From: Calothrix sp. 336/3
GTDB lineage: Bacteria; Cyanobacteriota; Cyanobacteriia; Cyanobacteriales; Nostocaceae
Reading direction: 5' to 3'
NCBI RefSeq assembly: GCF_000734895.2
Contig: NZ_CP011382.1
Span: 1,094,700-1,158,699, forward strand
DNA: 64,000 nt
Shown piece after piece: positions 47,858 through 64,000 of this stretch. The number at the start of each line of letters is the position of its first letter. Position 1 is the stretch's first letter. The notes under the pieces were generated by a model. The model had not been told where the DNA came from and did no database searches. It saw nothing but the letters and a program-made list of their open reading frames with translations. A program made the position numbers and the translations under genes.

Positions 47858-48864
47858 CGAAGTAAACTCTGAAAATAGAAATAGGCAGTAAAGTGGAAAA
47901 ATAAGGGCGCTGTATAAGTCAAGCTATCAATGCGATCAAGAATACCTCCATGTCCCGGAATTAAATTACCGCTATCCTTCACCCCTAAATCGCGCTTTAA
48001 GGCGGAGATTGTGACATCACCAATAAAACCAGCGACACCAATTAATATACCAACAGAGAGGGCATAAAGGGGCGGAAAAGGTGTTAACCAAGGAGCAATA
48101 ATTACAGCCATGACAGTGGTAGTAAAAATACCACCTAACAAACCTTCCCAGGTTTTATTGGGACTGACTGTGGGTAGTACTTTATGCTTTCCTAGGGATT
48201 TTCCCCAAATATATTGGGCGATATCGTTGATTTGGGTAAGAAAAACTAAGTATAAAATAAAGCCAGCACCTCCGGCAACAGGATTTACTTCTGCTGGAGC
48301 CATTAACAAATATGCCATGTGCCCAAAGCAATAAACTGTCAGCATCAAGCCCCAGTGTATAGTTCCTACTGCTTTGAGAAATCCTTCTGTTTCTCCGATA
48401 ATTACCATACGCATGGGTAAAAACAAGAACATATAAACAGGGATAAAGATAAGAAACATCACATACCAATTGATGTGAATCCAATAATATTCAATGATTA
48501 ACCCTAGGTATGCCCAAAATATGACTCGGCGATCTTCAATACGAGTCGGAATTAGGGAAAAATATTCTTTTAATGCTAAAAAGCTGAGAAAAGCAAAAAA
48601 GATAATGGCAATACTTTTGTTAACTGTGAGAGCAATAGTGAAAAGAATAACTATTATCCACCAGGATTGAACCCGTTGTTTGAGTTCGGTATAGTCTGTT
48701 TCTGGTTGGCGTAATGCCAAAATTGCAATGACAATGCTCGCAATGATTAAAAGTGTAAAAATGCCAGCGAATGCCCATAAAACATTAGGAGGGGGGAGAT
48801 GAAATAAACCTGTAATTATGGATTGTAAGGTTGATGTTTCTGTGAGATAGTTATTAATATTCAT
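47854..48864 (-). CDS. phosphatidate cytidylyltransferase (CdsA/YnbB-like)
   Basis: 336 residues and about eight membrane helices. The CdsA signature is intact (SPNKTWEGLLGG, then SALKRDLGVKDSG, then PGHGGILDRIDSL). Makes CDP-diacylglycerol from phosphatidate and CTP. It sits 1 bp after the CDP-alcohol phosphatidyltransferase gene and overlaps the acyltransferase gene. The operon setting suggests a dedicated second CdsA like E. coli YnbB rather than the housekeeping enzyme. Confidence 0.9.
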   Translation of the reverse strand: MNINNYLTETSTLQSIITGLFHLPPPNVLWAFAGIFTLLIIASIVIAILALRQPETDYTELKQRVQSWWIIVILFTIALTVNKSIAIIFFAFLSFLALKEYFSLIPTRIEDRRVIFWAYLGLIIEYYWIHINWYVMFLIFIPVYMFLFLPMRMVIIGETEGFLKAVGTIHWGLMLTVYCFGHMAYLLMAPAEVNPVAGGAGFILYLVFLTQINDIAQYIWGKSLGKHKVLPTVSPNKTWEGLLGGIFTTTVMAVIIAPWLTPFPPLYALSVGILIGVAGFIGDVTISALKRDLGVKDSGNLIPGHGGILDRIDSLTYTAPLFFHFTAYFYFQSLLR

Positions 48865-48865
48865 C

Positions 48866-49471
48866 TTAACTGACCTCAGCTAGGGTGTTTCTGACACGAT
48901 TAATGATATTGATAATTAGCAAAATTATGGTCATGGCAAAAAGGATATTGAGCCAAGTACCGGAAATAATTCCGCAACCTAGAAGCAGGGAAATTAGGGC
49001 AAAGATAAAGGCGCGATCGCTCTTCCCCATAGGACCATCATAACGACGAGTTCCACCTGCGACTACACCGAGAATTCCAGCCATTTCACTAATAATTGCG
49101 AGGATAACAATCACAACTACTAGGGGGCTAGTAATTCCAGGAATTAAAGCAAATGGCAGGTAAATAAAGGCATCGGAAATGACATCTGTTAATTCGTTAA
49201 GAATTCCTCCTAAAATGCTTTTCATCCCGTGTTCCCGCGCGAGCATCCCATCAATAGCATTCAGCGCCATCCTGATTAACATCAAGGGAGGAATGATTAA
49301 AAGTAATTGGGGATATTCGTGACCTATAGTAATAGTAATACCTGCAAATATAGAGAGGATAGTGGCAAAGATAGTCACTTGATTGGCTGTCACTCCCCTG
49401 TGAGCAAGTTGATTGACTAAAGGTCTGAGTTGGTTTTGAAAAGTGGGTTTGAGTTCGTAGAGACTACGCAT
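48866..49471 (-). CDS. CDP-alcohol phosphatidyltransferase, YnbA-like
   Basis: 201 residues, six membrane helices. The family motif reads NAIDGMLAR-x8-GGILNELTD. Compared with the canonical D-x2-DG-x2-AR-x8-G-x3-D-x3-D, the first and third Asp are Asn. The same substitutions are, from memory, a feature of the YnbA branch, so this is probably a real enzyme of that branch and not a dead copy. First gene of the operon; the product lipid is unknown. Confidence 0.88.
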   Translation of the reverse strand: MRSLYELKPTFQNQLRPLVNQLAHRGVTANQVTIFATILSIFAGITITIGHEYPQLLLIIPPLMLIRMALNAIDGMLAREHGMKSILGGILNELTDVISDAFIYLPFALIPGITSPLVVVIVILAIISEMAGILGVVAGGTRRYDGPMGKSDRAFIFALISLLLGCGIISGTWLNILFAMTIILLIINIINRVRNTLAEVS

Positions 49472-49658
49472 GGGCGAGATTTCCTGAATATTTCAAGTGG
49501 ATTTTAAAAGTAGTATTTTGCGCTTTTTTATAAAATTGAAATGTTTCCAAGGATGGGTGAATGGGAGAATATATAAACAGCAGTGAGGATTTCCATATTT
49601 ATGTGACAAAAATCCTGCCCAGGGGAGCAAGATATTGTCGTCGTAGCAAGAGAAACCT

Positions 49659-51839
49659 TTATTTCTTCACTGCTCTAACTGCGGCATCAGCATTAATCAA
49701 TCCACTACCGAAGAAAACCTGTTGTTCTGTCATTCCAGAAGAGATTAAACCTTCATTTACCAAACTGCGATATTTTTCCTTTTCCTTTTGAGAAACTCGT
49801 AAACTATCGTAACTTGCAGTTGATTTGAGAATATTAATTATTTGTTGTCGATTTAATCGCCGATCGCCATCTTCACCCTTCATCAAAGCTACCACCCCAG
49901 CAACCGCAGGAGAAGAAAAAGAAGTTCCCTGCATCCACCAATATTTACCCCGTGCATCCACCACCTCAGACCAACGGAAGTTAGGATAGGCTAAACCCTG
50001 CCAAAATGATTCCATCCAAGTTCCCCCAGTGGTAGCAATTCCCCCTAGTAATCCCACGGAGGTACTCAAATCTCCACCTGGTGCGACTACACCCAATCCC
50101 ATACCATAGTTGCTGTAGGGTGCGCGATCGCCAAACAAATTAGTTGCACCCACAGATAATACCCCCTCGTAACCGGAAGGGAAGCCGACTCTGGGATAAT
50201 TAGAATTACCAGAGGAAGCAACAATTACTAACTTGGGATTTTGTTGTAATATCTGCTTGTAGGTCATATCCTCCACATCGGTGGGTATCATTTTCCCTAA
50301 GCTTAAATTAATCACATCTGCACCCCGGTTAGCAGAATAAGCCACAGCTTCCAAAACTGCACCGTTTTGAATACTGCCATTTAATCCAAACACCCGCACG
50401 GGCAAAATTTTGGCATTGGGTGCAACTCCCCACATCCCTTCGGAAGTCTGCGGTTTAGCAGCAATTACCCCACTGACTAAAGTCCCGTGAAATTCCCCAC
50501 CAACCTGGGAACGGAGCATCGTACGTAGGCGATCGCCGATTTGTTTTTGAGACAATTGGGGATTGATTTTGGCTATTTGTTGGGGTGAAAGATATCGTTT
50601 GATTAATTCTCCATCGGATAATTTGAAAGTATCTTGTAATTTTTTCCGTAAAATATTCATTTCTAAAGGACTCATCTTGGTATCTGCATCACCAATTTCG
50701 CAGGGATTTTTACTATTACTAGGTTCGGAAAAATCCCAACCGTACTCTTCTCCTGGACATTTATCGGCAGCCGATACTTTATATAAATTATTTTGTAAAT
50801 CGGGGTGATTCCATTGAATTAAACTATCAACAACTGCGACTACTACACCTTTGCCACCATTACTATTTTGCCAAGCTTCAGTGACTCGTAAGTCAGTGCG
50901 GGGAAGGGTGACAGGAGGTTTAGTTTGTTTCTCCTTCACGCTTTGCTCCTGAAGACAACTTTGTAATTCCGCAAAATTGTTAATCTTCTGTTGTAAACAA
51001 GTTTGTAGGGGAGCGCTATTTAAATGCCACTGTAAACCTAAATAGGTGCTACTAGACTTATTTCCCCTTTGTGTTGCATTGGCAGATTGTTTTTCCCCAG
51101 AATCTAGATTTAAACCCTGGGATTTTTGTTGAGTGATATCAACAGAGTCAGCAACAGACTGGAGGAAATTGGGAGCAGCAGAGGTGATTCCCTTAACTTG
51201 ATTAAGTTGATTGGCAACATTCAACACAGCAGTATCAGTAACTGTGGTTGATTTCACAATGTAAATATTCGGTAAGAAACGCAGAGGACGAATAATTTCT
51301 AAATTATTTTGTTTCAGAATCGATGCTCTTTCCTTTTCGCCCATATTGGGTTGGAAACTAACGATAATTTCGTTTGGTAAAATAATCGTATCTTGACTGC
51401 TGGCACGGCTTAATACAGGTAAGGAAGTCTTAACATAGCTTTGATTTTTAATTTTTTGCCGAATCGCATCAGCATTCACAGCAGGTAACGCGACAACCGC
51501 ATAATTCCCCCCCAGGGGTTTCACCTGGATTTGGGAACCACCGCGAGTTCCTGCACCCTTAGCTAAATCCTGTTCTAATTGCAGATATAGGGGATTTGCC
51601 CCCCGATTGCGAGCATTAGATACTGGCTTAAATTCCACCGCGATCGCGTCTTTTTGTTGAGTTAAGGGAACGGGTTTTCCTTGATACAGATAAAATAGTT
51701 GATTATTCTGTGATTCTGGTGTTTGAGCCGCAGCAGTGGATTTAAATTGGCGATTAATTGCTGTTAAGGGAAAAATACTTGTCACAGCCAGCATTGTACT
51801 AGCTAGAAGAATACTGGATACAGCCAGTTGACGATTCAT
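49659..51839 (-). CDS. secreted subtilisin-like serine peptidase (S8)
   Basis: 726 residues from Met at 51839 (frame open to 51857). Signal peptide (ending near STAAAQ), a long propeptide-like region (about 45-320), then the S8 domain. Numbered from 51857: Asp344 (VVVAVVDSLIQ), His457 (GGEFHGTLVSG), Asn551 (VASSGNSN) and Ser646 (QGTSFSSPAVAG). About 100 residues separate Asp from His, much longer than in subtilisin, with a helical, Cys-flanked insert (EIGDADTKMSPLEMNILRKK onward). Probably an exported or periplasmic protease. Confidence 0.92.
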   Translation of the reverse strand: MNRQLAVSSILLASTMLAVTSIFPLTAINRQFKSTAAAQTPESQNNQLFYLYQGKPVPLTQQKDAIAVEFKPVSNARNRGANPLYLQLEQDLAKGAGTRGGSQIQVKPLGGNYAVVALPAVNADAIRQKIKNQSYVKTSLPVLSRASSQDTIILPNEIIVSFQPNMGEKERASILKQNNLEIIRPLRFLPNIYIVKSTTVTDTAVLNVANQLNQVKGITSAAPNFLQSVADSVDITQQKSQGLNLDSGEKQSANATQRGNKSSSTYLGLQWHLNSAPLQTCLQQKINNFAELQSCLQEQSVKEKQTKPPVTLPRTDLRVTEAWQNSNGGKGVVVAVVDSLIQWNHPDLQNNLYKVSAADKCPGEEYGWDFSEPSNSKNPCEIGDADTKMSPLEMNILRKKLQDTFKLSDGELIKRYLSPQQIAKINPQLSQKQIGDRLRTMLRSQVGGEFHGTLVSGVIAAKPQTSEGMWGVAPNAKILPVRVFGLNGSIQNGAVLEAVAYSANRGADVINLSLGKMIPTDVEDMTYKQILQQNPKLVIVASSGNSNYPRVGFPSGYEGVLSVGATNLFGDRAPYSNYGMGLGVVAPGGDLSTSVGLLGGIATTGGTWMESFWQGLAYPNFRWSEVVDARGKYWWMQGTSFSSPAVAGVVALMKGEDGDRRLNRQQIINILKSTASYDSLRVSQKEKEKYRSLVNEGLISSGMTEQQVFFGSGLINADAAVRAVKK

Positions 51840-52077
51840 AATTGACTTTCCTTGCAATAGATAGTGACTCAGGTATGCTGAACAAATTTCCTGGTATTTG
51901 TCCCACCTATTGATGTATAGTTCCCAACTACCTATGGGGTATGCAATTTTTTAACGGAATTTGTGGCGTTGCATCCCCAACAACAATCAAACATGATTCT
52001 TATTTATTCAGATTTGGTTTTTCTGATTCCCCCTGCTCCCTGCTGTCTATGTGTAGCTTTATTTTGGAGAATTGGTA

Positions 52078-52350
52078 TTAGGTTTCCGTTTGTACTGCAA
52101 TCACAACAAATTCACTATCATCAAGCAGAATAGTTTTGCGCCAAACGTTGGTACGTCCCGCCACAGGTATAAAATCATCACTATAGGCAAGTTTCTTTAA
52201 TTCCTGAGCCAACTGTGGGGTAAGGGATTTCAGAGCAGAGCTTGGTATTTCGCTTGTCCAGGAAGATACAAACCCTTTAAAGTTACTCTTTTTGTCCTGT
52301 CCGACGTAAGTATCACCCTTGTAATTAACAACGTAAGTATAGAGGGGCAT
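52078..52350 (-). CDS. small hypothetical protein
   Basis: 90 residues, no family recognised. It begins with a beta-strand stretch (LYTYVVNYKGDTYVGQDKK) and has no signal peptide or membrane segment. It lies between the subtilase gene and the trailer end of the CRISPR array. Confidence 0.55.
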   Translation of the reverse strand: MPLYTYVVNYKGDTYVGQDKKSNFKGFVSSWTSEIPSSALKSLTPQLAQELKKLAYSDDFIPVAGRTNVWRKTILLDDSEFVVIAVQTET

Positions 52351-52491
52351 CGGTACTCCTTGTATAGTTAATTCTGACTCTTGATTCCTAACTCAACAAT
52401 ATCTCAAGGTCATAAAACTGGAGTTTCTACACCGCGATCGCCCCAGAAAAACTATACTCAAATCCCGCACCCCAAAGCTTTATGTATTCAA

Positions 52492-52599
52492 GTTTCCATC
52501 CCCTTTCGGGGAGATGTGATTGTAAAGTTGAATGAGGATCTGAAGTCAATGAAAGCTCGTGATGTTTCCATCCCCTTTCGGGGAGATGTGATTGTAAAG
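52492..52599 (-). CRISPR. CRISPR array, leader-distal part (2 repeats, 1 spacer)
   Basis: Two identical 36-bp repeats at 52492-52527 and 52564-52599 around a 36-bp spacer. On the plus strand the repeat starts GTTTCCATCCCC and ends GATTGTAAAG. On the minus strand it has a CCCC-GAAA-GGGG hairpin and ends in ATGGAAAC, the usual 8-nt crRNA 5' tag of cyanobacterial type I and III systems, so the array runs leftward. The next spacer is broken after 15 nt by a Tn7-like element; the array continues at 58370. No cas genes are in this window. Confidence 0.9.
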
Positions 52600-52614
52600 T
52601 CATTCAAGAATTTT

Positions 52615-52728
52615 TGTGACTTGAACCACATGTTGGCAGTAAGTGCCACGAAGTGCTTCCAGTAGGGCAGTGCCATCAAGTGCTTCCATAAAAAAAGCAA
52701 AGTATAAAAGTAGCAAAGACCTTAAATA
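52615..52728. repeat. transposon left end with two TnsB-type motifs
   Basis: The terminal inverted repeat at 52615-52642, then motifs AGTGCCACGAAGTGCTTCCA (52642-52661) and AGTGCCATCAAGTGCTTCCA (52669-52688) spaced 27 bp apart. Tn7-family TnsB binds such arrays in both ends. The tniQ stop codon follows 40 bp further in. Confidence 0.7.
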
Positions 52729-53940
52729 TTATACATGAGGTTTCGATGATTTTGGCTTGTATAATTTATAGCGAGTAGATATCTCATGGCATAAATCAGG
52801 AAAGTATTTGTACAAATCTCTTGAATCATAGCCAATTTGAAGCGCAAGCTCTTTTAACGACTGAGGTGGAAAGGATTCTTGATGCTGTTCCAAAAATTCC
52901 TGTACCATTTGTGCATCAAAGGGACGATTAGTTTTAAAGTATTGTTCGGATAATGGTAATTCCTTTAAATATATAGGAGCATCTAATTTTAGCTGACCTA
53001 AATAAATGTCAATTAAAGGGATAGATAGTCGATAGCAAACACGTAATAATTTATCGAGTTGAGGAAGTGCATTACCAACACGCCAATCCCTGGGAACAGT
53101 TGAACTTAAAAACATTTCTTGTGCAAAGGCTTTAGCATTTCCTTTGGTTAAAACTTCAATACACTTATCGATAGCAATAGCAACAAATTCTCGTTTGGGA
53201 ATTTCAATCAAATAAGGAGTATTTGCGATTAATAAACCAACTTGTTGTGCAATAAATGAGTGCCATTCGATATCTTGTCTATTCACATTGTACAATTCAA
53301 TAGTTGAACAACTGCTGCCTAACCAATAATGACATCTACAGCAAAAGCCATTTTTAGTGTTCCAAGCTAATAGATAAATATGCTGCCCGCAATTTGGACA
53401 GTAATTCATCAAGGGATATTTGTGTATAGGGCAAATTTTCACTGCGGACACGCACCAAATTAATGGTTCATAAAGCATTATTCCTTTCTGGCTAGATTCT
53501 GAATAACATAGTGGACACCAAGCTTTATATTTACGTAATAAATTCCGAGTTGATAAAACATTCTGCCAATGAATTAGGGTGAGATATTTTAAATTTGGTT
53601 GTTGAGTCAGTTTCTGTAAAACTAACACAGGTTCAAGTGCCATAGTTCCAGTCCCATTCCATGCACCTGTTTGACTAAAAAAGGCGTGGAAAAATAGATT
53701 AGATAAGTGATTAGAGTTTTTGACCGGATAACGACTAATCGTTGGAGCTAATTCTTGAGCTAGTAAAACTCCTGTTGGTACTCGGTGAATTGCAGCTAAA
53801 CGTGTTACATAACTGGTAAAACTTTCAGTTAGTGGTGTGCCTAATAATAATGGTTGTAATGGATATAAATGACTGCGTTTTGGTAGGTTTAATTGCTGAG
53901 TAAAATCCGGCGATTGGAAATTGAAATTATCAGAGAGCAT
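52729..53940 (-). CDS. tniQ: TniQ/TnsD-family target-selection protein
   Basis: 403 residues from the ATG at 53940, chosen because GGAGG lies eight bases upstream; it overlaps the tnsC stop by 11 bp. The TniQ start is PLTESFTSYVTRLAAIHRVP. Zinc ligands follow as C142-x2-C145, C170-x2-H173, C181-x2-C184 and C200-x2-C203. The C-terminal 190 residues are helical with HTH-like character (SFPPQSLKELALQIGYDSRDLYKYFP). It is longer than type V-K TniQ (about 170 residues) and shorter than Tn7 TnsD (about 500), so it may bind DNA itself as well as recruit TnsC. Expected role: choose the integration site. Confidence 0.9.
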   Translation of the reverse strand: MLSDNFNFQSPDFTQQLNLPKRSHLYPLQPLLLGTPLTESFTSYVTRLAAIHRVPTGVLLAQELAPTISRYPVKNSNHLSNLFFHAFFSQTGAWNGTGTMALEPVLVLQKLTQQPNLKYLTLIHWQNVLSTRNLLRKYKAWCPLCYSESSQKGIMLYEPLIWCVSAVKICPIHKYPLMNYCPNCGQHIYLLAWNTKNGFCCRCHYWLGSSCSTIELYNVNRQDIEWHSFIAQQVGLLIANTPYLIEIPKREFVAIAIDKCIEVLTKGNAKAFAQEMFLSSTVPRDWRVGNALPQLDKLLRVCYRLSIPLIDIYLGQLKLDAPIYLKELPLSEQYFKTNRPFDAQMVQEFLEQHQESFPPQSLKELALQIGYDSRDLYKYFPDLCHEISTRYKLYKPKSSKPHV

Positions 53941-55120
53941 TTCCACCACCTCCAACGATATCCCGATTTATTTTTCGTTCCCCAGGACGGCGTTTCTTTC
54001 GATTGTTTTTGGTTTCTGCACTTGTAGATAAATTGTGATGGCTTGATGTATCCCGAACAGATATATTTTGGTTATCACGAACTACTAAGCCTAAAGATGA
54101 ACGAAGTTTTTCTACTTGATTTTCCCCAGATGATAAAATATTCTCACCCTCAATTGCTTCGGTTAACATTCGCACAGATTTAGAGACAGCAGGTGCATAA
54201 GCTTGTAAATGCTTGTAACTTAAACAATTTGATGATTCAGACAAAGCTTTTCTGAGTGACTGTGTGAGCCAATCTTTAACTATTCCCACACAGCCAATGC
54301 TACGCTCATAAAAGTAATCCCAGTGTTTTTCTAAATCAGGAGTTTCAGGTAAAGGCATTGCAAAGGAGAAACTTTTTAATACCCTTTGAAAATCTTTGAT
54401 ATCTTCTGGATTCTCACTTTGATAACGAGGAAAATGTATATCTATACTTCTGCGACTAAGCTGACCGCTTAAATTTCTTAATTGTAATAATTCATATGTA
54501 CCAAATAACCCGTGTCTTGTTTGAGTAAAACTAGCCATTGATTGAATTGCATCCATTTGGTCTTGTTGTTTGTGACCGGATGTAATTTTGGCAAAACGTT
54601 GTGCTTCGTCAACTAAAAAAACTTTTAATCTTCTTTGCTGAAAAATATGTTCGACATCTGCTCTTAAATCTACCAAATTTGGCTTAACTTTTACTGTTTT
54701 TTGCTCGCCACCATTCCCATACACTCGATGACTACCCGTTCTAGTTTTATAATCAGCAAATGGTTCGCTTAAAGCAATTAAAACACTTTTATAGTAAACT
54801 TTCCAATCAAAAGAACCTGTATCTGGAGAACGTGCTTCGACACCAGCTATTGGAAGAAATGACAAATCCTGTATCATTAAAGCTTGATTTTGCTCAAAGA
54901 TAATTTTCATGACTTGAGCCATTAGAGTTGTTTTCCCAACCCCAGTTGGACCGAATAGAAAAATTAATGACGCACCTCCAGGATTATTTATTGCATCTAA
55001 AAATTCTTCATAGACTTGTTTTAGAAGTCTATGTACAACAGTAAAATTGATAAAATAATTAATTTTTTCATTATCTGATGCGGTGAGTATTTCTTGGGAA
55101 ATATCTGAGGTAGAATGCAT
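53930..55120 (-). CDS. tnsC: transposition regulator ATPase TnsC
   Basis: 396 residues of the AAA+ TnsC/TniB family. Walker A FGPTGVGKTT (Lys63 region, 57-65) and Walker B LKVFLVDEAQRF (Asp171-Glu172). TnsC forms ATP-bound filaments or rings on target DNA and couples the TniQ-type selector to the transposase. I start at the ATG at 55120, which shares a base with the tnsAB stop (TAATG) and has AGGAG upstream. The C-terminal 70 residues are basic (NNRKKRRPGERK) and may contact the transposase or DNA. Confidence 0.93.
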   Translation of the reverse strand: MHSTSDISQEILTASDNEKINYFINFTVVHRLLKQVYEEFLDAINNPGGASLIFLFGPTGVGKTTLMAQVMKIIFEQNQALMIQDLSFLPIAGVEARSPDTGSFDWKVYYKSVLIALSEPFADYKTRTGSHRVYGNGGEQKTVKVKPNLVDLRADVEHIFQQRRLKVFLVDEAQRFAKITSGHKQQDQMDAIQSMASFTQTRHGLFGTYELLQLRNLSGQLSRRSIDIHFPRYQSENPEDIKDFQRVLKSFSFAMPLPETPDLEKHWDYFYERSIGCVGIVKDWLTQSLRKALSESSNCLSYKHLQAYAPAVSKSVRMLTEAIEGENILSSGENQVEKLRSSLGLVVRDNQNISVRDTSSHHNLSTSAETKNNRKKRRPGERKINRDIVGGGGNAL

Positions 55121-57786
55121 TACCAAAACTCCTCGTATGGTTTAATATCTTCTGCAATCAATTCCTTCTCTTCTGGCTCTTGAATTGGTAATTCCAGCAT
55201 CTCAATCATAGTTGTTTGTATAACTGGAGTTTGATTGTTTGGAGTTGTCGCATATATTTCTTTTGCTTCGATATCCTGCATTCTTTGCAGTAAGATTACC
55301 TCTTGTTGTTCTGACTTATTCAAAAACTCAGCTAAACTCGATGCTGTAACGACAAATTGTCTATTTGCACAACTATGACGCTGGCGTATTTCCTCAGATG
55401 CAATTCTAATTTCCCTTTCTGAATGTCCAACTAAACTACTGTAATGCTGTGAAATACAAGTTACCCATTGATTGTCAACATAAGCATAAGCAACTCCCAT
55501 ATCATAAGGGTCGTAGCGCACAGGTACTTGAGTTTTTTCTATTTCTGGATGGCGAAAAATATTGTGCCAATAATAAATATTATTAATCTTAATTCCATTA
55601 TTAGGGATTACTTTTGCAGTTCCCTTTGGCGTTGTTGGTAAAGTAAATATTTTAAAATTGCCATCATATTTAATTACTTTATGGCTGCGTAATCCCGTTC
55701 TTAAAAATCCATCCTCAAACATTGAGCGAGGGCTTTGGCTTAGTGCTGGATGTTCTTTATTGTCGTAAAACTCATAAGCCCAATCATATAGGTTTTGGTA
55801 TAAACTACCTAGTGTCCAAATTGCTAAGTTTTTTGGATTTACACTTTTAGTTACACCTCTAGGGTTACGAGTAATTTGTGTATTTCCTTGAAGGTTATGG
55901 ATTAGCATTGTGTTTGCTGTACCAAAAATCCTTTCACATACACTCCCAAACCTTGGTTTTGCTTGTGGGCGAGTTTTTTTAGTACAAGTATAGGCTGCGA
56001 GCAATGTTTCAAAATAGATACTTTCAAATTCTTTTCCACCATCTACTACTAAAGTGGATGGGAAACGTCCATAGCGACGGACGCATTCCCTCATCACCAT
56101 CATGCAACTGCGGTAAGAAGGTGGGTCAAATGTTAAATAAATTGCTAATATTCTTCTGGAGTAAGCATCTATCAAAAATGTTAGCCAAGGACGACCTAGA
56201 TTGACTTTTGAGTAAGAGCTTACTAGTTCAATGTCCAATTCTGTATGGTCTATATGGCAAATTTCAAATGGTCTATCACCGTGCCTTGGCGTTGTTAGCT
56301 CTAGTTCCCAATAAAAACATTCATTTTTATAGGCTATGCGTTTCCCTTGTCTATGTAATTTTGTTTCAAACTGTGGTATTTTTTTCAAGTTTTTTAAAAA
56401 TGTTTTATAGCTTGGAGGTATCAATCCTTTATCAATACAGGTTTGGCGTAAACTACAATATGTTGCATATTTACCTTTCTGCTTGACATTCAGATAATCA
56501 TTTTCGATAAACTCATCAATTAGTTTTTGTGTTTGAACTGGTAGTTTTCCTTGGTTGGCTGTTTGATTTTTGTGCTTTGGCAATAATCCTAAATATCCAC
56601 AACCGTATTGCTTATCCGCCTCAAGCCACTTTCTTACCCATCGGTAGAATGTTCTTCTTGGTACTTCTGTAAAATCTGCTTTTTCACCTTGTAAATAACC
56701 AGATATAATTGAATAACGCCTCGACGCTTCTATACAATCTTCAACTGATGAACATTTGAAAAATTCTTGTATATCTTGAGAATTTTGAGTATTACTGATT
56801 GCTTGAAACTTATCTTGCTCTATTAACCTTCTCCATTCCTGATTTGGTAATGAGATTATTTGTGAAGATTCTGACAGTAATGAGATACTTTTTTCTCCTA
56901 CATTTATTACATGCCATATCTGTCCATCCCATTTTCCAATTGCTCCAACATGACTTAGGTCTAGAAATTTTCTTGGACTCCAAGCTATATCATTTCTTGA
57001 TATATCTAGTGCTTCAGCCGTTTCTTTATTTACAAATACACTAATTCTTTCTAACTCTGTACTCAGGGAAAATGAATCTAAATCAACATATACCGTCTGG
57101 TCTGCAATTAATTTGTATATGTAGTCTGGATTAATACCTTTTTCTAATAATTCTGATAATTTTATTCCTGGAAATATGGAAATTATTTTGATTATTTTTA
57201 CTATATCTTCTCTTGGTACTTCGAGATTAATCGATAAATAGTCAGATAAAAAATAGATATTTCTTTGCTTCTTCCAATTTATTTCTTTGTCGGAGCGAAC
57301 AACATAATATAACCCTAAATTTAAAGCAAACTCCTCTCCGGGGGGACATCGCCATTTTCCATTACTATCTAATTGATAGCGATTCGGCATTTTTGATGCT
57401 AAAGCTGATAGCTCTGATGCTGTTTTACATTCTTCCCAACCTGCACTTTTACTCCTAATTACAAAAAAGTCTGCTGTATGCAGTACTCCTATTCGTCGTC
57501 CATTTAAACAAGTGTATTGCAACTTTATTTTTGGTGGCTGGTCGTAATATTCCAATACATCTGGGTCATATTCCATCTCATATATTCGCGCTAGCTCATT
57601 GTGATGACTCTCAAATTGAATCACCACACCCATTTTTTTGCTTGGATATCGACCGACTACGTTTCCAGCATTTCCCCTCACCCGTCTTGATGGTGGAGAA
57701 CTACGTATCGACTGAATTATTGTATACTGCGCTGATGATAAATCGAGTGATGCAGACCACTCTTCTAACTCAGATTCTGTCAGCAT
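55120..57786 (-). CDS. tnsAB: TnsA-TnsB fusion transposase
   Basis: 888 residues from the ATG at 57786, which has GGAG eight bases upstream (a TTG at 57804 adds six codons). Residues about 40-180 are a TnsA-type endonuclease: Glu64 (SHHNELARIYE), Asp106 (HTADFFV), Glu119 and Lys121 (GWEECKT). Residues about 360-640 are the TnsB/Rve DDE transposase: Asp513 (CHIDHTELD), Asp582 (LVVDGGKEFES), Glu618 (SVCERIFGT), a D-35-E spacing. All catalytic residues are present. With both activities the element should move by cut-and-paste. Fused TnsAB is known from type I-B and I-D CRISPR-associated transposons of cyanobacteria, but no cas genes accompany this one. Confidence 0.94.
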   Translation of the reverse strand: MLTESELEEWSASLDLSSAQYTIIQSIRSSPPSRRVRGNAGNVVGRYPSKKMGVVIQFESHHNELARIYEMEYDPDVLEYYDQPPKIKLQYTCLNGRRIGVLHTADFFVIRSKSAGWEECKTASELSALASKMPNRYQLDSNGKWRCPPGEEFALNLGLYYVVRSDKEINWKKQRNIYFLSDYLSINLEVPREDIVKIIKIISIFPGIKLSELLEKGINPDYIYKLIADQTVYVDLDSFSLSTELERISVFVNKETAEALDISRNDIAWSPRKFLDLSHVGAIGKWDGQIWHVINVGEKSISLLSESSQIISLPNQEWRRLIEQDKFQAISNTQNSQDIQEFFKCSSVEDCIEASRRYSIISGYLQGEKADFTEVPRRTFYRWVRKWLEADKQYGCGYLGLLPKHKNQTANQGKLPVQTQKLIDEFIENDYLNVKQKGKYATYCSLRQTCIDKGLIPPSYKTFLKNLKKIPQFETKLHRQGKRIAYKNECFYWELELTTPRHGDRPFEICHIDHTELDIELVSSYSKVNLGRPWLTFLIDAYSRRILAIYLTFDPPSYRSCMMVMRECVRRYGRFPSTLVVDGGKEFESIYFETLLAAYTCTKKTRPQAKPRFGSVCERIFGTANTMLIHNLQGNTQITRNPRGVTKSVNPKNLAIWTLGSLYQNLYDWAYEFYDNKEHPALSQSPRSMFEDGFLRTGLRSHKVIKYDGNFKIFTLPTTPKGTAKVIPNNGIKINNIYYWHNIFRHPEIEKTQVPVRYDPYDMGVAYAYVDNQWVTCISQHYSSLVGHSEREIRIASEEIRQRHSCANRQFVVTASSLAEFLNKSEQQEVILLQRMQDIEAKEIYATTPNNQTPVIQTTMIEMLELPIQEPEEKELIAEDIKPYEEFW

Positions 57787-57804
57787 TGCTACTCCGGTAC
57801 GCAA

Positions 57805-58345
57805 TGTTTACTTCATTGCATACTTCTATTCAATCTAAATTTTTTGCTTTCAAAATTTAAGAACTATGAATTTTTTTCTACTTAGTGCCACGAAGTGCTT
57901 CCACAAAATCCGGCTTATAATTGCTCAAGCTATTGTCTGGACTATTATTCAGCGTTTTTAAATACAGTGTTATTTTATACTATATTGTCTATTAAATTTT
58001 ACATTTTCTCACGATTTCGTACTATCAAATAGTAGTTCAAAAGTTCCTATGTACTAGCTTTTATGTCATTTTTACGTCGTTTTTGAGAATGCAATCAAAT
58101 CTAATTGTCTAAATATCCTATGACTATTCGCCCTGAAACCATCTCTATACAAAGGTTTCATCTGTTTGTCTGTCTTTTACATACTTTGTGCCATTTTAGT
58201 CGTCCTATTTTTATACTTTGTGCCATCTACTGCTTCCATTATTCTCAGAATCGCCTCTTTCGCGCAACGTAATCATCAGCTTTTCAAGCTTTTTTAGTGC
58301 CATAAAGTGCTTCCACTTTAGTGCCATTACCTGGGTAAAGTGACA
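57805..58345. repeat. transposon right end with TnsB-type motifs
   Basis: 540 bp without a gene. Copies of the 20-bp motif lie at 57884-57903 (identical to the left copy at 52642), 58219-58238 and 58296-58315, with half-motifs TTTGTGCCA at 58185 and AGTGCCA at 58320. The terminal repeat ends at 58345. A 7-bp stem TGAAACC / GGTTTCA at 58134-58160 is also present. The tnsAB promoter should lie at the left of this region. Confidence 0.65.
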
Positions 58346-58369
58346 GCAAACATTATTGGTGCAATTCAG

Positions 58370-58480
58370 GTTTCCATCCCCTTTCGGGGAGATGTGATTG
58401 TAAAGTTAAGCGTTTTCAAGCCAGTGAAATGGTAGCTGGAAAAAGTTTCCATCCCCTTTCGGGGAGATGTGATTGTAAAG
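58370..58480 (-). CRISPR. CRISPR array, leader-proximal part (2 repeats, 1 spacer)
   Basis: Two 36-bp repeats (58370-58405 and 58445-58480) identical to those at 52492 and 52564, same orientation, around a 39-bp spacer. The 24 nt between the transposon end and 58370 are the other part of the interrupted spacer: 15 + 24 = 39 nt, a normal spacer length for this array. Confidence 0.9.
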
Positions 58481-58680
58481 AGTTCACTTCTGGAAGCCTT
58501 GCTGTGAGCGGGTTTGAGATACCTCAATCGACACCACTCGAAAAATCAGTAAAAATTTCTCAAAAAATGGTCGATTTTGCAGTCTGGAAAGCTTGCTGCG
58601 TAAGGTATCGACACCAGTCAACGAAGTTATGCGGTTTTCAAGGTTCGGGGGAGTGGTGTCGATTTCTCGATACAATTTCT
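58481..58680 (-). promoter_or_regulatory. candidate CRISPR leader
   Basis: Directly abuts the first repeat on the minus strand. It holds an imperfect direct repeat of about 40 bp (TTCTGGAAGCCTTGCTG at 58488 and GTCTGGAAAGCTTGCTG at 58583, each followed by ATCGACACCA) and a 13-bp perfect inverted repeat ATCGACACCACTC (58527-58539) / GAGTGGTGTCGAT (58651-58663). Regions rich in GTGTCGA words beside arrays of this repeat type are familiar from Nostocales genomes. The short open frame in it is not called. Confidence 0.55.
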
Positions 58681-58941
58681 ATGTATAAACCTACCAAATC
58701 CTTACCCCACAAGCAATATAGCCCATATATTTCTTAACAAAATTGCCGAAAGTCGGGGGATGATTTGTGAGGAAAGGTAAATGATAGGCGATCGCCGCTT
58801 CGGCGGGCTGGAAGCCTATCGCCGCTTTGGTGGAGCGTAGCTCTATCGCCATTCATACCAAGTTGGGTGCTGTCGTGGTAGGTTCAGAATAATGGGATTG
58901 GTTCCCCGCGATCGCAATGACAGTATAAAGACTACCACCCT
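58681..58941. other. intergenic region right of the CRISPR leader
   Basis: Contains a palindromic GGCGATCGCCGCTTCGGCGG-type stretch (about 58786-58855) made of HIP1-like words repeated with CTATCGCCGCTTTGG. No gene is seen. Confidence 0.4.
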
Positions 58942-60069
58942 CTAAAAGCGGAGAATTTCCCGTTGGTAATTTTCTGGAAGGGGGGTGACTTCCCAGATGA
59001 TACCTTCTGCTGGTTCCAGGGCAACTTCGACATATAGTTGTTCTGTGGCAGTGGTAGCAATCCCCTGATTATTTTCAAAGTCTTGTAAGTCTTCGGTGAG
59101 TAATCGCAGGATAAAACCACCGGGTATCAATGCACCAACAGCATGATGCTGCAATGTAAACCGCCAAATTACCATATCTCCCTCCCTTCTGGGGATAAGT
59201 TGCAGGGTGTAGGGTTGTCCGGCAATGGTGAGTTGTCGTGAGAGAATGGTGGTATGGGGGATGGTTTCCGTACTCCGAGCGCTGGCGGTACTGAGTTGCA
59301 AATTTACAGCTTGCCATCCCAACTGTTGAGCGAATCGAGAAATACCATTTTCCAGCCATTCATACACAGAAAAGGGTTCGGTTTGTGCCGTGCGCTGACA
59401 GTATAAATTTTGTCGCCAACCATCATGACTAACTAATCCTCCCCAGATAGGAAAGGGAATTTCTAAACGAGGGTGGATAATTCCAGGGTTTCCCAGACGG
59501 TTAATCAGATTGTGTGCTTGGGGGATGGATATTTGGGGGAGCGGTGAAAGGGGAGTGCGAGTGGTTTCTGGGGGGGTGAGGGTGAGGATAGTGATATCGT
59601 TAATCAGGTGATCAGCATCTAGGGAATAAGTGCGATCGCTGCTGTCATACTTCCCAAGATTTTTCAGTTGGTTGTGGGTACTATAACCCCAAACTCGCAC
59701 ATAGTTATCATCCGTTTCCACCTGCACTGCCAGATAATAATCTCCCACCCAATTGGGTATGTCTACCCACTCCTGGGGAACCCGAAACTCTTCTAAATCA
59801 ATGTTTTCGCTGGGAACTAAGATAAATCTTACCCCGTCTGCTGTGATATCAAATCCGTTAACCAGCTCCCAAAAGCTGGGTAAAGCAGTGGTACTCGTCA
59901 TAGACTTTGCTTGGGGTGTGACATCGGTTTGTAACCAAGGGAAAACCGCATCCCAGCAGAGTCTATTTATATATGCTTGATAGCGACTGGTGGAATGAGA
60001 ACAAGTTTGGCTTTGTTCCCATGCTTGATTTTGCCCATCTGGGGGGATTTCTAGGAGTAGGTGGTGCAT
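58942..60069 (-). CDS. DUF1822 family protein
   Basis: 375 residues of the cyanobacterial DUF1822 family (FWELVNGFDITADGVRFILVPSENIDLEEFRVPQEWVDIPNWVGDYYLAVQV). No catalytic motif is known for the family. DUF1822 genes usually lie next to a sigma-70-like factor, as here (60870-62036), and often near CHASE2 or DUF928 genes. This points to a shared regulatory or envelope-stress role, which is an inference. Confidence 0.85.
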   Translation of the reverse strand: MHHLLLEIPPDGQNQAWEQSQTCSHSTSRYQAYINRLCWDAVFPWLQTDVTPQAKSMTSTTALPSFWELVNGFDITADGVRFILVPSENIDLEEFRVPQEWVDIPNWVGDYYLAVQVETDDNYVRVWGYSTHNQLKNLGKYDSSDRTYSLDADHLINDITILTLTPPETTRTPLSPLPQISIPQAHNLINRLGNPGIIHPRLEIPFPIWGGLVSHDGWRQNLYCQRTAQTEPFSVYEWLENGISRFAQQLGWQAVNLQLSTASARSTETIPHTTILSRQLTIAGQPYTLQLIPRREGDMVIWRFTLQHHAVGALIPGGFILRLLTEDLQDFENNQGIATTATEQLYVEVALEPAEGIIWEVTPLPENYQREILRF

Positions 60070-60117
60070 AGGATATTTTTTGGGGAAAGGTTACATAATT
60101 AATAATTTGGAAGAAGT

Positions 60118-60192
60118 AATGAGTAGGGAGTAGGGAGTGGGGAGTAATGAGTAGGAAGTAGGAAGTAGGAAGTAGGAAGTAGGGAGTAATGA
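60118..60192. repeat. heptameric STRR (AGTAGGA/AGTAGGG units)
   Basis: About ten tandem heptamers in the 800-bp gap between the DUF1822 gene and the sigma factor gene. Confidence 0.85.
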
Positions 60193-60347
60193 GTGGATTA
60201 AGTGAATGATTTTTTTAAGGCAAAGAATTGTGCATGAATTTGTAATAGGAAATTACAAGTAAAAGGTACAAAATCAACAGCTTAAATTAAGGGAGGTAAT
60301 GAGATTTGGGTGTAGATGCTAGAGAAGAGAAGGAGAATGATATTTTC

Positions 60348-60396
60348 TGCTACCCATTCCCCATTACTTATTACTCCTTACTTATTACTTATTACT
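60348..60396. repeat. heptameric STRR (TTACTCC/TTACTTA units)
   Basis: Tandem heptamers that run directly into MITE copy C. Similar tracts separate copies C, D and E (60510-60563, 60675-60709) and continue to 60875. Confidence 0.8.
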
Positions 60397-60510
60397 TATA
60401 GGGTTTCCCAATCAGATGAAATACAACTCCACCCGCCCTATCGGGCACCCTCCCCGATTTCGGGGAGGGCTGATGAGGGGTTCTTCTATACCTCACTAGA
60501 ATGAGAATAT
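60397..60510 (+). mobile_element. MITE copy C, right end trimmed
   Basis: Begins TATAGGGTTTCCCAATCAG and stops at AATGAGAATATTAC, lacking the AACGC of a full right end. The internal palindrome CCTCCCCGA / TCGGGGAGG is intact. Confidence 0.78.
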
Positions 60511-60563
60511 TACTCCTTACTCCTCACTTATTAATCCTTACTCCTTACTTATTAATCCTTACT

Positions 60564-60675
60564 TATAGGATTTCCCAATCAGATGAAATACAACCCCACC
60601 CGCCCTATCGGGCACCCTCCCCGATTTCGGGGAGGGCTGGGGAGGGGTTCTTCTATACCTCACTAGAATGAGAAT
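60564..60675 (+). mobile_element. MITE copy D, right end trimmed
   Basis: Begins TATAGGATTTCCCAATCAG and ends AATGAGAATATT like copy C. Copies C and D share the same right-end deletion, so one probably arose from the other by segmental duplication that included the flanking STRR. Confidence 0.78.
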
Positions 60676-60709
60676 ATTACTCCTTACTCCTTACTTATTA
60701 ATCCTTACT

Positions 60710-60827
60710 TATAGCGTTTCCCAATCAGATGAAATACAACCCCACCCGCCCTATCGGGCACCCTTCCGAAATCGGGGAGGGTTGGGGAGGGGTTCTTCTA
60801 TACCTCACTAGAATGAGAAACGCTATA
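60710..60827 (+). mobile_element. MITE copy E, intact ends
   Basis: 118 bp from TATAGCGTTTCCCAATCAG to AATGAGAAACGCTATA: perfect 11-bp terminal inverted repeats. The central stem is altered (CCTTCCGA / TCGGGGAGG). It sits just downstream of the sigma factor gene and could act as a terminator for it. Confidence 0.82.
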
Positions 60828-60869
60828 TTACTCATTACTCCTCACTTATTACTCCTTACTCCTCACTTA

Positions 60870-62036
60870 TTACTCCTTCCCAAAATACCCTTGTAGCCAT
60901 TCTTCCATAACAGTGTTGATAGATTTGAGTATGTCGGAGTTGAGGGAAATATGCAGAGTTTGTTGACTCCATTGAGCAAGGGTTTTGAGAAGGGTTTCTC
61001 TGGTTTTGGTGAGACGACGGGAGACGGTATATTGTTGGAGGGCAAGTTTTTGGGCGATTTCTTGCTGGGTGAGTGCTTGGGTGTAGTAAAGTTGGAGAAT
61101 TTCCTGGGTTTGGGGTTCGAGTTGGGTGAGTGCGGTGGTTAGGAGTTGGTGAATTTCTGCTTGTTGTTTGTCTCTGTTGCTTTCCTCTTCCTGGGTAATA
61201 ATTTCACTTAATAGAGATTCTTGTTGATTGCTGGGGATATTATCAATGAGTTCGTTTCCTGTTTCCCCAGATGTGGATATATTTATTGATGTGACTGGGG
61301 GGTGAAGATAACGACGCAGTGCTTTTGCTATGTTTAATAACCAGGTTTCTAGGGTTTGAGGGGTAATATTTTCAGAATTTTTTTGGTTGTATGCAGTGGC
61401 GATCGCCTCCCAAGTTGCTGCATCTGGGGGTGGGAGTTTGCGACTACCTTGAGGTTGGGTGGGTGCGTAAAGAGATTTGAAACATTGCCAAGCACTGGTG
61501 TAATTGGTGATAGTATCGCGGGGCAGGGATATAGCTTGTAAAGCTTCTTGTAAGCGTTTTTGGCTCGTTTTGCGCAATAATCCCCACTCCGAGCAAATAT
61601 CCATTTCGTGACTTTGCCGCAGATTCTCCCGAATTACCGTTATAAATATGGCACTAGCATAATTTTTGAGACTAAAACCTTGTTGGGGATTAAACCCTTT
61701 GAGAATTTTTTCAACCTGGGCGATCGCAATTTGAAAACAGTCAGCTAATTTATATTGGGTACTTGTCAAGTTATTGGCAGTTTTCCGCGCTACCCAAAAA
61801 CAAGCTTCCTGTAAGTATGCGGTTAAATGTGCTTGCGGTAAGTTGCGAGATTGTGACTGCCATAATTTGTGCCAATAAATTGCCCAAAAGTTTTCCCCGT
61901 ATTCCTGGGGAGACTCCTGGAGAACCCTTTGCATACTCTGACGCAATCGTCCATCTGTCACCCATTGTTGCAGGCGATTGCCATCCAAGAGCAAGAATGT
62001 AGAAAAAATTTCAATATTATTACTTCTAGGGTGCAT
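60870..62036 (-). CDS. sigma-70 family RNA polymerase sigma factor-like protein
   Basis: 388 residues. The region 2-like part is divergent (about 130-190). Region 4 with its HTH is clear (about 300-350: LEPQTQEILQLYYTQALTQQEIAQKLALQQYTVSRRLTKTRETLL). This long, diverged type is specific to cyanobacteria and resembles group 3 / ECF-like factors. It is upstream of a DUF1822 gene on the same strand across an 800-bp MITE and STRR gap; the pair is conserved in cyanobacteria, from family knowledge. The stop lies within STRR-like sequence. Confidence 0.82.
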   Translation of the reverse strand: MHPRSNNIEIFSTFLLLDGNRLQQWVTDGRLRQSMQRVLQESPQEYGENFWAIYWHKLWQSQSRNLPQAHLTAYLQEACFWVARKTANNLTSTQYKLADCFQIAIAQVEKILKGFNPQQGFSLKNYASAIFITVIRENLRQSHEMDICSEWGLLRKTSQKRLQEALQAISLPRDTITNYTSAWQCFKSLYAPTQPQGSRKLPPPDAATWEAIATAYNQKNSENITPQTLETWLLNIAKALRRYLHPPVTSINISTSGETGNELIDNIPSNQQESLLSEIITQEEESNRDKQQAEIHQLLTTALTQLEPQTQEILQLYYTQALTQQEIAQKLALQQYTVSRRLTKTRETLLKTLAQWSQQTLHISLNSDILKSINTVMEEWLQGYFGKE

Positions 62037-62195
62037 AAAAATTAACTACCCAGCCTAAATTAATTCATGAGACAAATTTAATTACATAGTTTTTCGCAAG
62101 TTTTCGGAGTATTTTTTCTACAGATGTCAAACAGGTTATGTGACTACAGAGCAGATGTTGGCAGAGTAGCACAAAATCAGTGATAATTTTTACGC

Positions 62196-64000
62196 TTACT
62201 TACTGACATAGGGGAGGGCGATCGCAAAACAACTGCCTACCTCCAACTCACTAGTTAAAGTCACTTCTCCGTGATGCATTTCAACGATACGTTTAACTAA
62301 AGCCAATCCTAAACCTGTACCTTCATAGTTGCGATTTAGCGCACTATCTACTTGAATGAAAGGTTCAAACACTTTCTTGAGATTTTCAGGAGCAATGCCA
62401 ATTCCTGTGTCTTTGACGTTAATTTGTAAGTAATTTTGTTGTTTAATTGTGGTTGGATAAATAACTTCTAAAGTAATACATCCTCCTTCGGGAGTAAATT
62501 TCACGGCATTATTTAGCAGATTAATTAATACTTGGCGGATGCGTCGTTCATCGAGATTGAAATCGGGCAAATTAGTAGGTAATTTACTGACTAACTGAAT
62601 TGATTTTTTCGCTGCTTGGGGTTTGATGAATTCTAAACTTTGCTGACATAAGGGTATAATTGCCGTGTTTTGGCAGTCAAGTTCAATTTGTCCAGAGGCA
62701 ATTTTAGAAACATCGAGAATATCATTAATTAGTTCGAGTAAATGGTTCCCACTACGCTCCACTGTAGCTAGAGCTTGCAGTTGTTGTGCGTTAATTTCTC
62801 CAAAGATTTCTTCCTGTAATGCTTCCGTCATCCCCAAAATTGCATTCATAGGGGTACGCAATTCATGACTCATAGTAGCGAGAAATTCGTCTTTGAGACG
62901 GGTTGCACGGATAAGTTCTGCATTAGTTTGTTCGAGTTCCTCTTCGTAGGCTTTGCGATCGCGAAACAACTTAGCATTTTCTAAGGATATGGCAGCTTGG
63001 GTAGAGAGGAAATTGAGAATTTGCAAGCGATTACGACTAAATACACCACTAGTGATTTGATTTTCCAAGCAGAGAATGGCGATCGCTTTACCTTGGTTGA
63101 GTAGGGGTAAACAAAGGAGACTTTGGGGTTGTTGTTGAGTGAGATAATTATCAATAACTGGTAAATCGGTATCAAGATTATCGATTACCACAGTTCCTTG
63201 GGTATTTTTGACGTAATTAATCAGTTTTACAGGTAAATGGGGATTCCCAATCAGGGGTTCATTAACTAAGGTAGTAGTTTCCGAAGTCCCCAGGGCTTCT
63301 ACTTGCCAACCATTATTACTATCAGGAAGGATAATTGCACAGCGATCGCCACCTGAATATTTCAGGATAATTTGGGTTAGTTGATGGAGCAATTCACCAA
63401 TTTCAATAATTCCTGATAGACTTTGAGCGGCTCTGAGGATGCTGGCAAAGTCGAGGATATTATTAATGTTGCTGCTGGAAGAACTACTGGAATTGGTGCG
63501 ATTATGAATAGATTCAATCGGGGTAATCGTTGCTAGATTATCAAGTAAATTTAGGGGTATGGCTGTTGATTGAAAAATAGGTTGTAATAAGTTGGGATAA
63601 CGCTTTTCCAAGTCATTGGTTTTAGCTCTGGCTCCCCAATGGGCATAGCAATAGTAGGCTTCCTGTATATATCCGGCGGCAACTTTTTCTTTGCCCCAGG
63701 CGAGATAGAATTTTGCTGCTAGTTCATTGGCGATCGCAGCTTCGTAACCATATCCCTCAGCTTGAGCTTGGGCAATGGATTGATCATAGTAATCAATCGC
63801 CTCTAATTTTTGTCCCTTCAGTCGTGCTTTTTCAGCTTGGATGAGCAAACACTTGTGCTGAATGTTCGCCGGACAATCCTGTTGCCAACGGGTTAACCGT
63901 TCTTCCAGGGGTATAATTGCCTGCCAATGGAACTCTCTATCAGCCTCATTCTGGGCGGTTTCAACTAGTGCCAAGTGCATAAGAATCACATAAAAGACAC
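62196..64000 (-). CDS. multi-sensor histidine kinase, C-terminal part (runs off window)
   Basis: At least 600 residues; the frame stays open to the window edge, reading VFYVILMHLAL. It matches the C-terminal half of the large cyanobacterial Ser/Thr kinase-AAA-GAF-histidine kinases. Visible from the N-side: TPR-like helices, a Ser-rich linker, a GAF domain (about 180-335), HisKA with FLATMSHELRTPMNAILG (phosphoacceptor His), and HATPase_c with LLNNAVKFTPEGG, VKDTGIGI and GTGLGLALVKRIVEMHHG. All kinase boxes are intact. The true start lies outside the window. Confidence 0.88.
   Translation of the reverse strand, partial: VFYVILMHLALVETAQNEADREFHWQAIIPLEERLTRWQQDCPANIQHKCLLIQAEKARLKGQKLEAIDYYDQSIAQAQAEGYGYEAAIANELAAKFYLAWGKEKVAAGYIQEAYYCYAHWGARAKTNDLEKRYPNLLQPIFQSTAIPLNLLDNLATITPIESIHNRTNSSSSSSSNINNILDFASILRAAQSLSGIIEIGELLHQLTQIILKYSGGDRCAIILPDSNNGWQVEALGTSETTTLVNEPLIGNPHLPVKLINYVKNTQGTVVIDNLDTDLPVIDNYLTQQQPQSLLCLPLLNQGKAIAILCLENQITSGVFSRNRLQILNFLSTQAAISLENAKLFRDRKAYEEELEQTNAELIRATRLKDEFLATMSHELRTPMNAILGMTEALQEEIFGEINAQQLQALATVERSGNHLLELINDILDVSKIASGQIELDCQNTAIIPLCQQSLEFIKPQAAKKSIQLVSKLPTNLPDFNLDERRIRQVLINLLNNAVKFTPEGGCITLEVIYPTTIKQQNYLQINVKDTGIGIAPENLKKVFEPFIQVDSALNRNYEGTGLGLALVKRIVEMHHGEVTLTSELEVGSCFAIALPYVSK

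Follow-up and report, generated by a model that had tools for sequence, protein, structure and literature searches.

A Tn7-like transposon found mostly in CRISPR arrays, at a near-constant distance from the repeat, in Calothrix sp. 336/3 and related genomes

The window, a stretch of 64,000 nucleotides (nt) of Calothrix sp. 336/3, contains a Tn7-like tnsAB-tnsC-tniQ element of 5,731 bp at positions 52615–58345, with its genes on the minus strand, situated inside an array of clustered regularly interspaced short palindromic repeats (CRISPR). The ends are TGTGACTTG... at 52615 and ...AAGTGACA at 58345, and are exact because the same 5,731 bp are found at 100% identity at two further places in the genome. 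Three open reading frames occupy most of the element: tniQ/tnsD (52729–53955, 408 amino acids, the predicted target selector), tnsC (53930–55126, 398 amino acids, an AAA ATPase) and tnsAB (55120–57804, 894 amino acids, a fused TnsA-TnsB transposase), all on the minus strand. Pfam matches consist of TniQ, AAA in TnsC, and TnsA-N, rve and Mu-C in TnsAB. The tniQ-side, target-proximal end (52615–52700) starts with TGTGAC and carries predicted sites AGTGCCA..AAGTGCTTCC at 52642 and 52669, presumably bound by TnsB; the tnsAB-side end (57884–58345) has the terminus GTGACA and displays spread putative TnsB sites (57884, 58219, 58296 and others). A TnsA and TnsB transposase, an AAA TnsC, a TniQ-domain selector and TGT/ACA termini are all hallmarks of Tn7-like transposons, as is a 5-bp target-site duplication, which 8 of 14 sites of this family have (copy 3 below among them, but neither the window copy nor copy 2). 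Three further open reading frames of at least 80 amino acids inside the element overlap the tns/tniQ frames and give no Pfam match; as only tns/tniQ genes are recognised, no cas gene is seen inside the element. A CRISPR-associated transposon (CAST) is defined by cas genes and a guide array inside the element; here only tnsAB, tnsC and tniQ are found between the ends, and the repeats lie outside.

Four identical 36-bp repeats in a single orientation (plus strand) surround the element, two on either side, at 52492–52527, 52564–52599, 58370–58405 and 58445–58480. A search of the genome for this repeat at up to 3 mismatches gave no match beyond these four. The repeat adjoining the tniQ-side end (52564–52599) has its GTTTC start 51 nt from the insertion and is the predicted TnsD/TniQ binding site. 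The element starts 15 nt past this repeat and leaves half-spacers of 15 nt (52600–52614) and 24 nt (58346–58369); a 39-nt spacer (58406–58444) separates the two right-hand repeats. A predicted leader on the minus strand (58481–58700) closely resembles, compared by eye, a stretch beside the array of another copy (copy 3 below; L013 6400-6600). This would make the repeat at 58445–58480 leader-proximal and that at 52492–52527 the trailer side, with array transcription from the minus strand, so that array and element genes would be transcribed the same way. Judged by the leader and by the usual form of cyanobacterial repeats, the GTTTC end is presumably the end that gives the handle of the CRISPR RNA (crRNA). 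The coordinates thus bear out the repeats, their orientation and the array outside a cas-less element as described in the sequence-only reading of this locus. That reading also took both ends to lie in one spacer of normal length, 15 + 24 = 39 nt. The half-spacer lengths stand, but their sum cannot be read as the mark left by a single clean insertion, because the flanking 5-mers, ATTTT and GCAAA, differ and form no target-site duplication. It is more likely that two insertions in one array later recombined.

Three identical copies of the element are found in this genome (G000). Copy 3 runs across the origin of its contig and is inserted in a second array, which has a repeat of its own (GTTTCCGTCCCC...GTAAAG); it lies 16 nt past the repeat and in the same orientation as the window copy. 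It is flanked by a clean 5-bp duplication, TCTTC, with 2 repeats on the trailer side and 14 on the leader side. Copy 2 (L012 2500-9600) lies outside any array, has no target-site duplication (flanks CGATA/TTATC) and links a phosphatase-like open reading frame, cut at the element, to a phage-integrase-family gene region; this locus is likely a rearrangement point. A swap or misassembly among the three copies was considered and rejected, as the 5-mers ATTTT/GCAAA, CGATA/TTATC and TCTTC/TCTTC pair only within copy 3.

Relatives were sought with TniQ (198 relatives; 386 genomes of the phylum, 217 of the family and 388 of the order, in overlapping sets), and flanking DNA was examined for close relatives and a selection of more distant ones. 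The window element, together with relatives whose TniQ is at least 44% identical, gives 17 sites with a readable tniQ-side end in 10 genomes. Thirteen of the 17 insertions are inside CRISPR arrays: G000 (two of three), G065, G547 (four of four), G592, G043, a G047 fragment, G180 (two of three) and G722. The remaining sites are G000 copy 2, the G180 chromosomal copy, G688 and G655. All 13 array sites show one repeat orientation, with the GTTTC start 48–53 nt from the tniQ-side end (51, 52, 52, 52, 53, 53, 52, 53, 50, 49, 50 and 48 nt at 12 sites, 48 nt at the G047 fragment), and the repeats vary between array sites in different genomes. The leader side holds 2–29 repeats at the 10 array sites where it is readable. 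The trailer side holds 1–4 repeats at 10 of 11 readable array sites (22 in G043; G592, cut by a contig end, is left out of this count). Low numbers on the trailer side would fit continued array growth at the leader, or selection against insertions near the leader.

Some of these loci display further arrangements. In G547 (L097-L100), four deletion derivatives of 3,363 bp, each in a different CRISPR array, keep tniQ and both ends but lack most of tnsAB and roughly half of tnsC; the derivative may move in trans. In G043 (L047 2064-6000), a 22-repeat array is flanked by two elements, one showing its right end to the array and the other its left end, and cas1 is about 1.2 kb off. In G644 (L105), a 5,180-bp contig appears to consist of the element and nothing else, from one terminus to the other (TGCCAC...GTGGCA); this suggests that the genome holds several copies.

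The sites outside arrays also carry a repeat-like sequence. A 12-nt motif model was trained on 12 array sites only and applied at offsets 48–53; the non-array motifs had been spotted by eye before the test, with model and offsets taken from the array sites alone. Two motifs are strong, GTTTCCTTCCCC at 49 in G688 (p = 0.0002) and GATTCCATTCAA at 48 in the G180 chromosomal copy (p = 0.0018), and two are weak, TTTTCCATTGAG at 50 in G655 (p = 0.016) and GTTTGGGTTCAT at 53 in G000 copy 2 (p = 0.017). The four sites combined give a Fisher value of 2e-7. A repeat-like motif at non-array sites, at the distance seen in arrays, points to protein reading of the repeat DNA sequence. The other end of the repeat was considered as anchor and lies 12–17 nt away in 12 array sites, versus 48–53 nt from the start. 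Both distances are tight, but the repeat start is preferred because the non-array sites decide for it.

Thus this Tn7-like transposon (tnsAB-tnsC-tnsD) has copies found mostly in CRISPR arrays, 48–53 nt from the GTTTC start and in one orientation, and very probably reaches them through its 408-amino acid TnsD-like TniQ, which most likely binds the conserved repeat end as double-stranded DNA while TnsC sets the distance. In the proposed pathway, TnsD would bind the GTTTC end of the repeat, its TniQ domain would load TnsC, TnsC would set the distance, and TnsAB would insert the element at about 51 bp, its tniQ-side end closest to the repeat. On chromosomes and on plasmids, arrays would serve as a landing site that the host can spare. 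That TnsD binds directly, that the element moves by cut and paste and that neither host Cas proteins nor crRNA are needed are in each case predictions. The proposal in the sequence-only reading of a Tn7-like branch that uses CRISPR arrays as attachment sites gains support from the 13 of 17 sites. The search of relatives which it proposed did reveal cas-less elements in arrays at a fixed distance and orientation to the repeat, and its caution that a single copy could not separate targeting from a chance hit no longer applies, given three identical copies, one of them in a second array, and the sites in relatives. Among the modes of targeting that it offered, repeat recognition agrees best with these data; the leader does not fit as anchor, as 2 to 29 repeats lie on that side where it is readable.

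Several findings weigh against this interpretation. Four of the 17 sites are outside arrays, two of them with a weak motif; the sequence-only reading had named homologues at unrelated sites as evidence against targeting, but these four have the look of repeat mimics, in two cases a weak one. Six of the 14 sites with both ends readable lack a target-site duplication (G000 copies 1 and 2, G065, one G547 site, G592 and G722), the window copy included. The host carries a type III effector locus with Cmr2 (Cas10), Csx10, Csx7 and a TIGR02619 CRISPR-associated gene (G000:C1:495000-505000; L157). In published work, reconstitution of such elements in E. coli was reportedly attempted and failed, which would leave room for a host factor. 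For the missing duplications, the differing repeats on the two sides of G592 and the two element ends around one array in G043 suggest recombination between copies as the likely cause, with a collapsed contig as a possible alternative for G592.

A host factor could act if a CRISPR effector, Cas6 or Cas1-Cas2 on the array marked the site and recruited TniQ-TnsC, the array then being found by way of Cas proteins or crRNA and not by TnsD reading DNA. The insertion distance does resemble the approximately 50 bp given for CAST elements (PMC8649781), and the type III effector genes of the host and the cas1 near one G043 array are consistent with such help. However, the repeat-like motif at the same distance is found at sites with no array, which can be explained without host Cas help. 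No Cas1 was detected in the genome of the window, while the control search was positive in 9 of 14 named genomes; Cas help, if any, is thus unlikely to be Cas1-based. A crRNA-guided route was also looked for: the left flank of copy 2, searched against G000, and the flank of the chromosomal copy in G180, searched against G180, gave besides themselves only short matches (E above 0.8), so that two of the four non-array flanks show no spacer match (the G688 and G655 flanks were not searched). Sister elements insert at a near-equal offset from tRNA genes, and Faure et al. (PMC10293859) report for CAST I-D that TnsAB, TnsC and TnsD bring about tRNA-gene homing in E. coli. Recruitment by Cas proteins is therefore improbable, although the type III genes keep some form of host help in view.

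It is considerably less probable that array and element moved together, or that the flanking repeats are an assembly artefact. The window copy and copy 2 without duplications and the different repeats per side in G592 would fit, but repeats differ among the array sites, clean 5-bp duplications are present at 8 of the 14 sites (TCTTC, AGAGA, CTACG, GGGCT, GCAGA, GAAGG, TTTAT and GATAG), and no swap among the three copies in G000 restores a duplication. Least probable of all is chance survival of insertions in long non-essential arrays, for while arrays are dispensable and survivorship may account for some of the enrichment and the near-trailer position, 12 of 12 array sites show one orientation with a 6-nt spread in a period of about 72 nt (rough chance 7e-16 if uniform and independent), the G047 fragment repeats that orientation and distance, different repeats are used in different genomes, and the motif recurs at non-array sites.

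Array homing itself is already known. Cyanobacterial elements close to tRNA-targeting ones are said to occupy a fixed spacer position on chromosomes and plasmids and to differ in the TnsD C-terminus; the clade of the present element likewise lies beside tRNA-targeting TnsDs and has an altered C-terminus. A CRISPR-repeat-targeting Tn7-like family is named in the title of Chacon Machado and Peters (Mob DNA 2025;16:5, doi 10.1186/s13100-025-00344-1). As far as that title describes it, the behaviour is the same, with the fixed array position seen here at 13 of 17 sites at offsets 48–53. The title, together with what is reported of the family, classes the present element as a further case of a behaviour published in 2025. 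The present analysis adds independent evidence, the repeat-like motifs at sites outside arrays, and a comparison with the tRNA T-arm, given below. Here a mobile element uses the immune memory of its host as an address, most likely located by protein and not by guide RNA.

Other known systems are related to different degrees. TnsAB is fused as in the integrase of PDB 9bw1 and alike from end to end (8e-285), and the "TniQ" protein, judged by its match to the TnsD structure PDB 8v32, is TnsD-like, with similarity over residues 23–400 (2e-76) and a length of 408 residues versus 462. The system of 8v32 and 9bw1, PmcCAST, a type I-B2 CAST, differs in that the element here is without cas genes, has one TniQ only and targets a repeat and not a tRNA gene. 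For CyCAST (CAST I-D), Faure et al. 2023 (PMC10293859) describe TnsD homing to a site 30–33 nt beyond a tRNA gene, matching the 30–32 nt measured here in sister elements; CyCAST, unlike the present element, has cas genes of type I-D and a pair of target selectors. Tn5469, as described in PMC11406308, is like the present element cyanobacterial, with one TniQ and no cargo, but is listed there as apparently untargeted; the likeness is by description only.

More distant TnsD relatives show a tRNA gene at 13 of 24 loci (19 genomes). At the 12 of these sister loci with a recognisable end, the tRNA ends 30–32 nt from the element end, and the T-arm GGTTC (AGTTC in one) starts 52–55 nt from it. The window at 48000–63000 and 16 loci of the CRISPR clade contain no tRNA gene. 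A tree of 36 rows places all ten rows of the CRISPR clade, with G644 among them, in one group at 100/99. The 12 sister TnsDs extend 54–73 residues past the last aligned residue, versus 0–6 residues in nine CRISPR-clade proteins (including G644, which has no readable site). The protein of the present element thus resembles a shortened tRNA-type TnsD, and the clade would have arisen by a target switch from tRNA genes. The near-equal offset and the shorter TnsD, set against the tRNA-homing sisters, provide a concrete model, open to testing, of how the target of a selector may change, useful for engineering Tn7-like insertion.

The possible new part is a DNA core common to T-arm and repeat. Tentatively, a tRNA-homing TnsD that read GGTTC-RA-CC about 53 bp from the insertion may have lost its C-terminal 60 residues and thereby come to read GTTTC-ATCCC repeats at 48–53 bp, gaining every GTTTC-type cyanobacterial array as a landing site that a protein recognises with neither Cas nor guide. 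A T-arm model gives p<0.05 at 10 of 12 array sites (exceptions G043, 0.26, and G722, 0.07), and T-arm and repeat columns correlate at 0.61 at shift 0 and 0.60 at shift -1. Against the idea, the T-arm model reaches p<0.05 at none of the four non-array sites (0.063, 0.065, 0.14 and 0.78), and its best fit is shifted by 1 nt at several sites.

Beside the array region, the window also displays degenerate tandem and inverted repeats at 60103–60880, of the GGGAGTAATGAGTAGG type and of a 167-nt repeat family.
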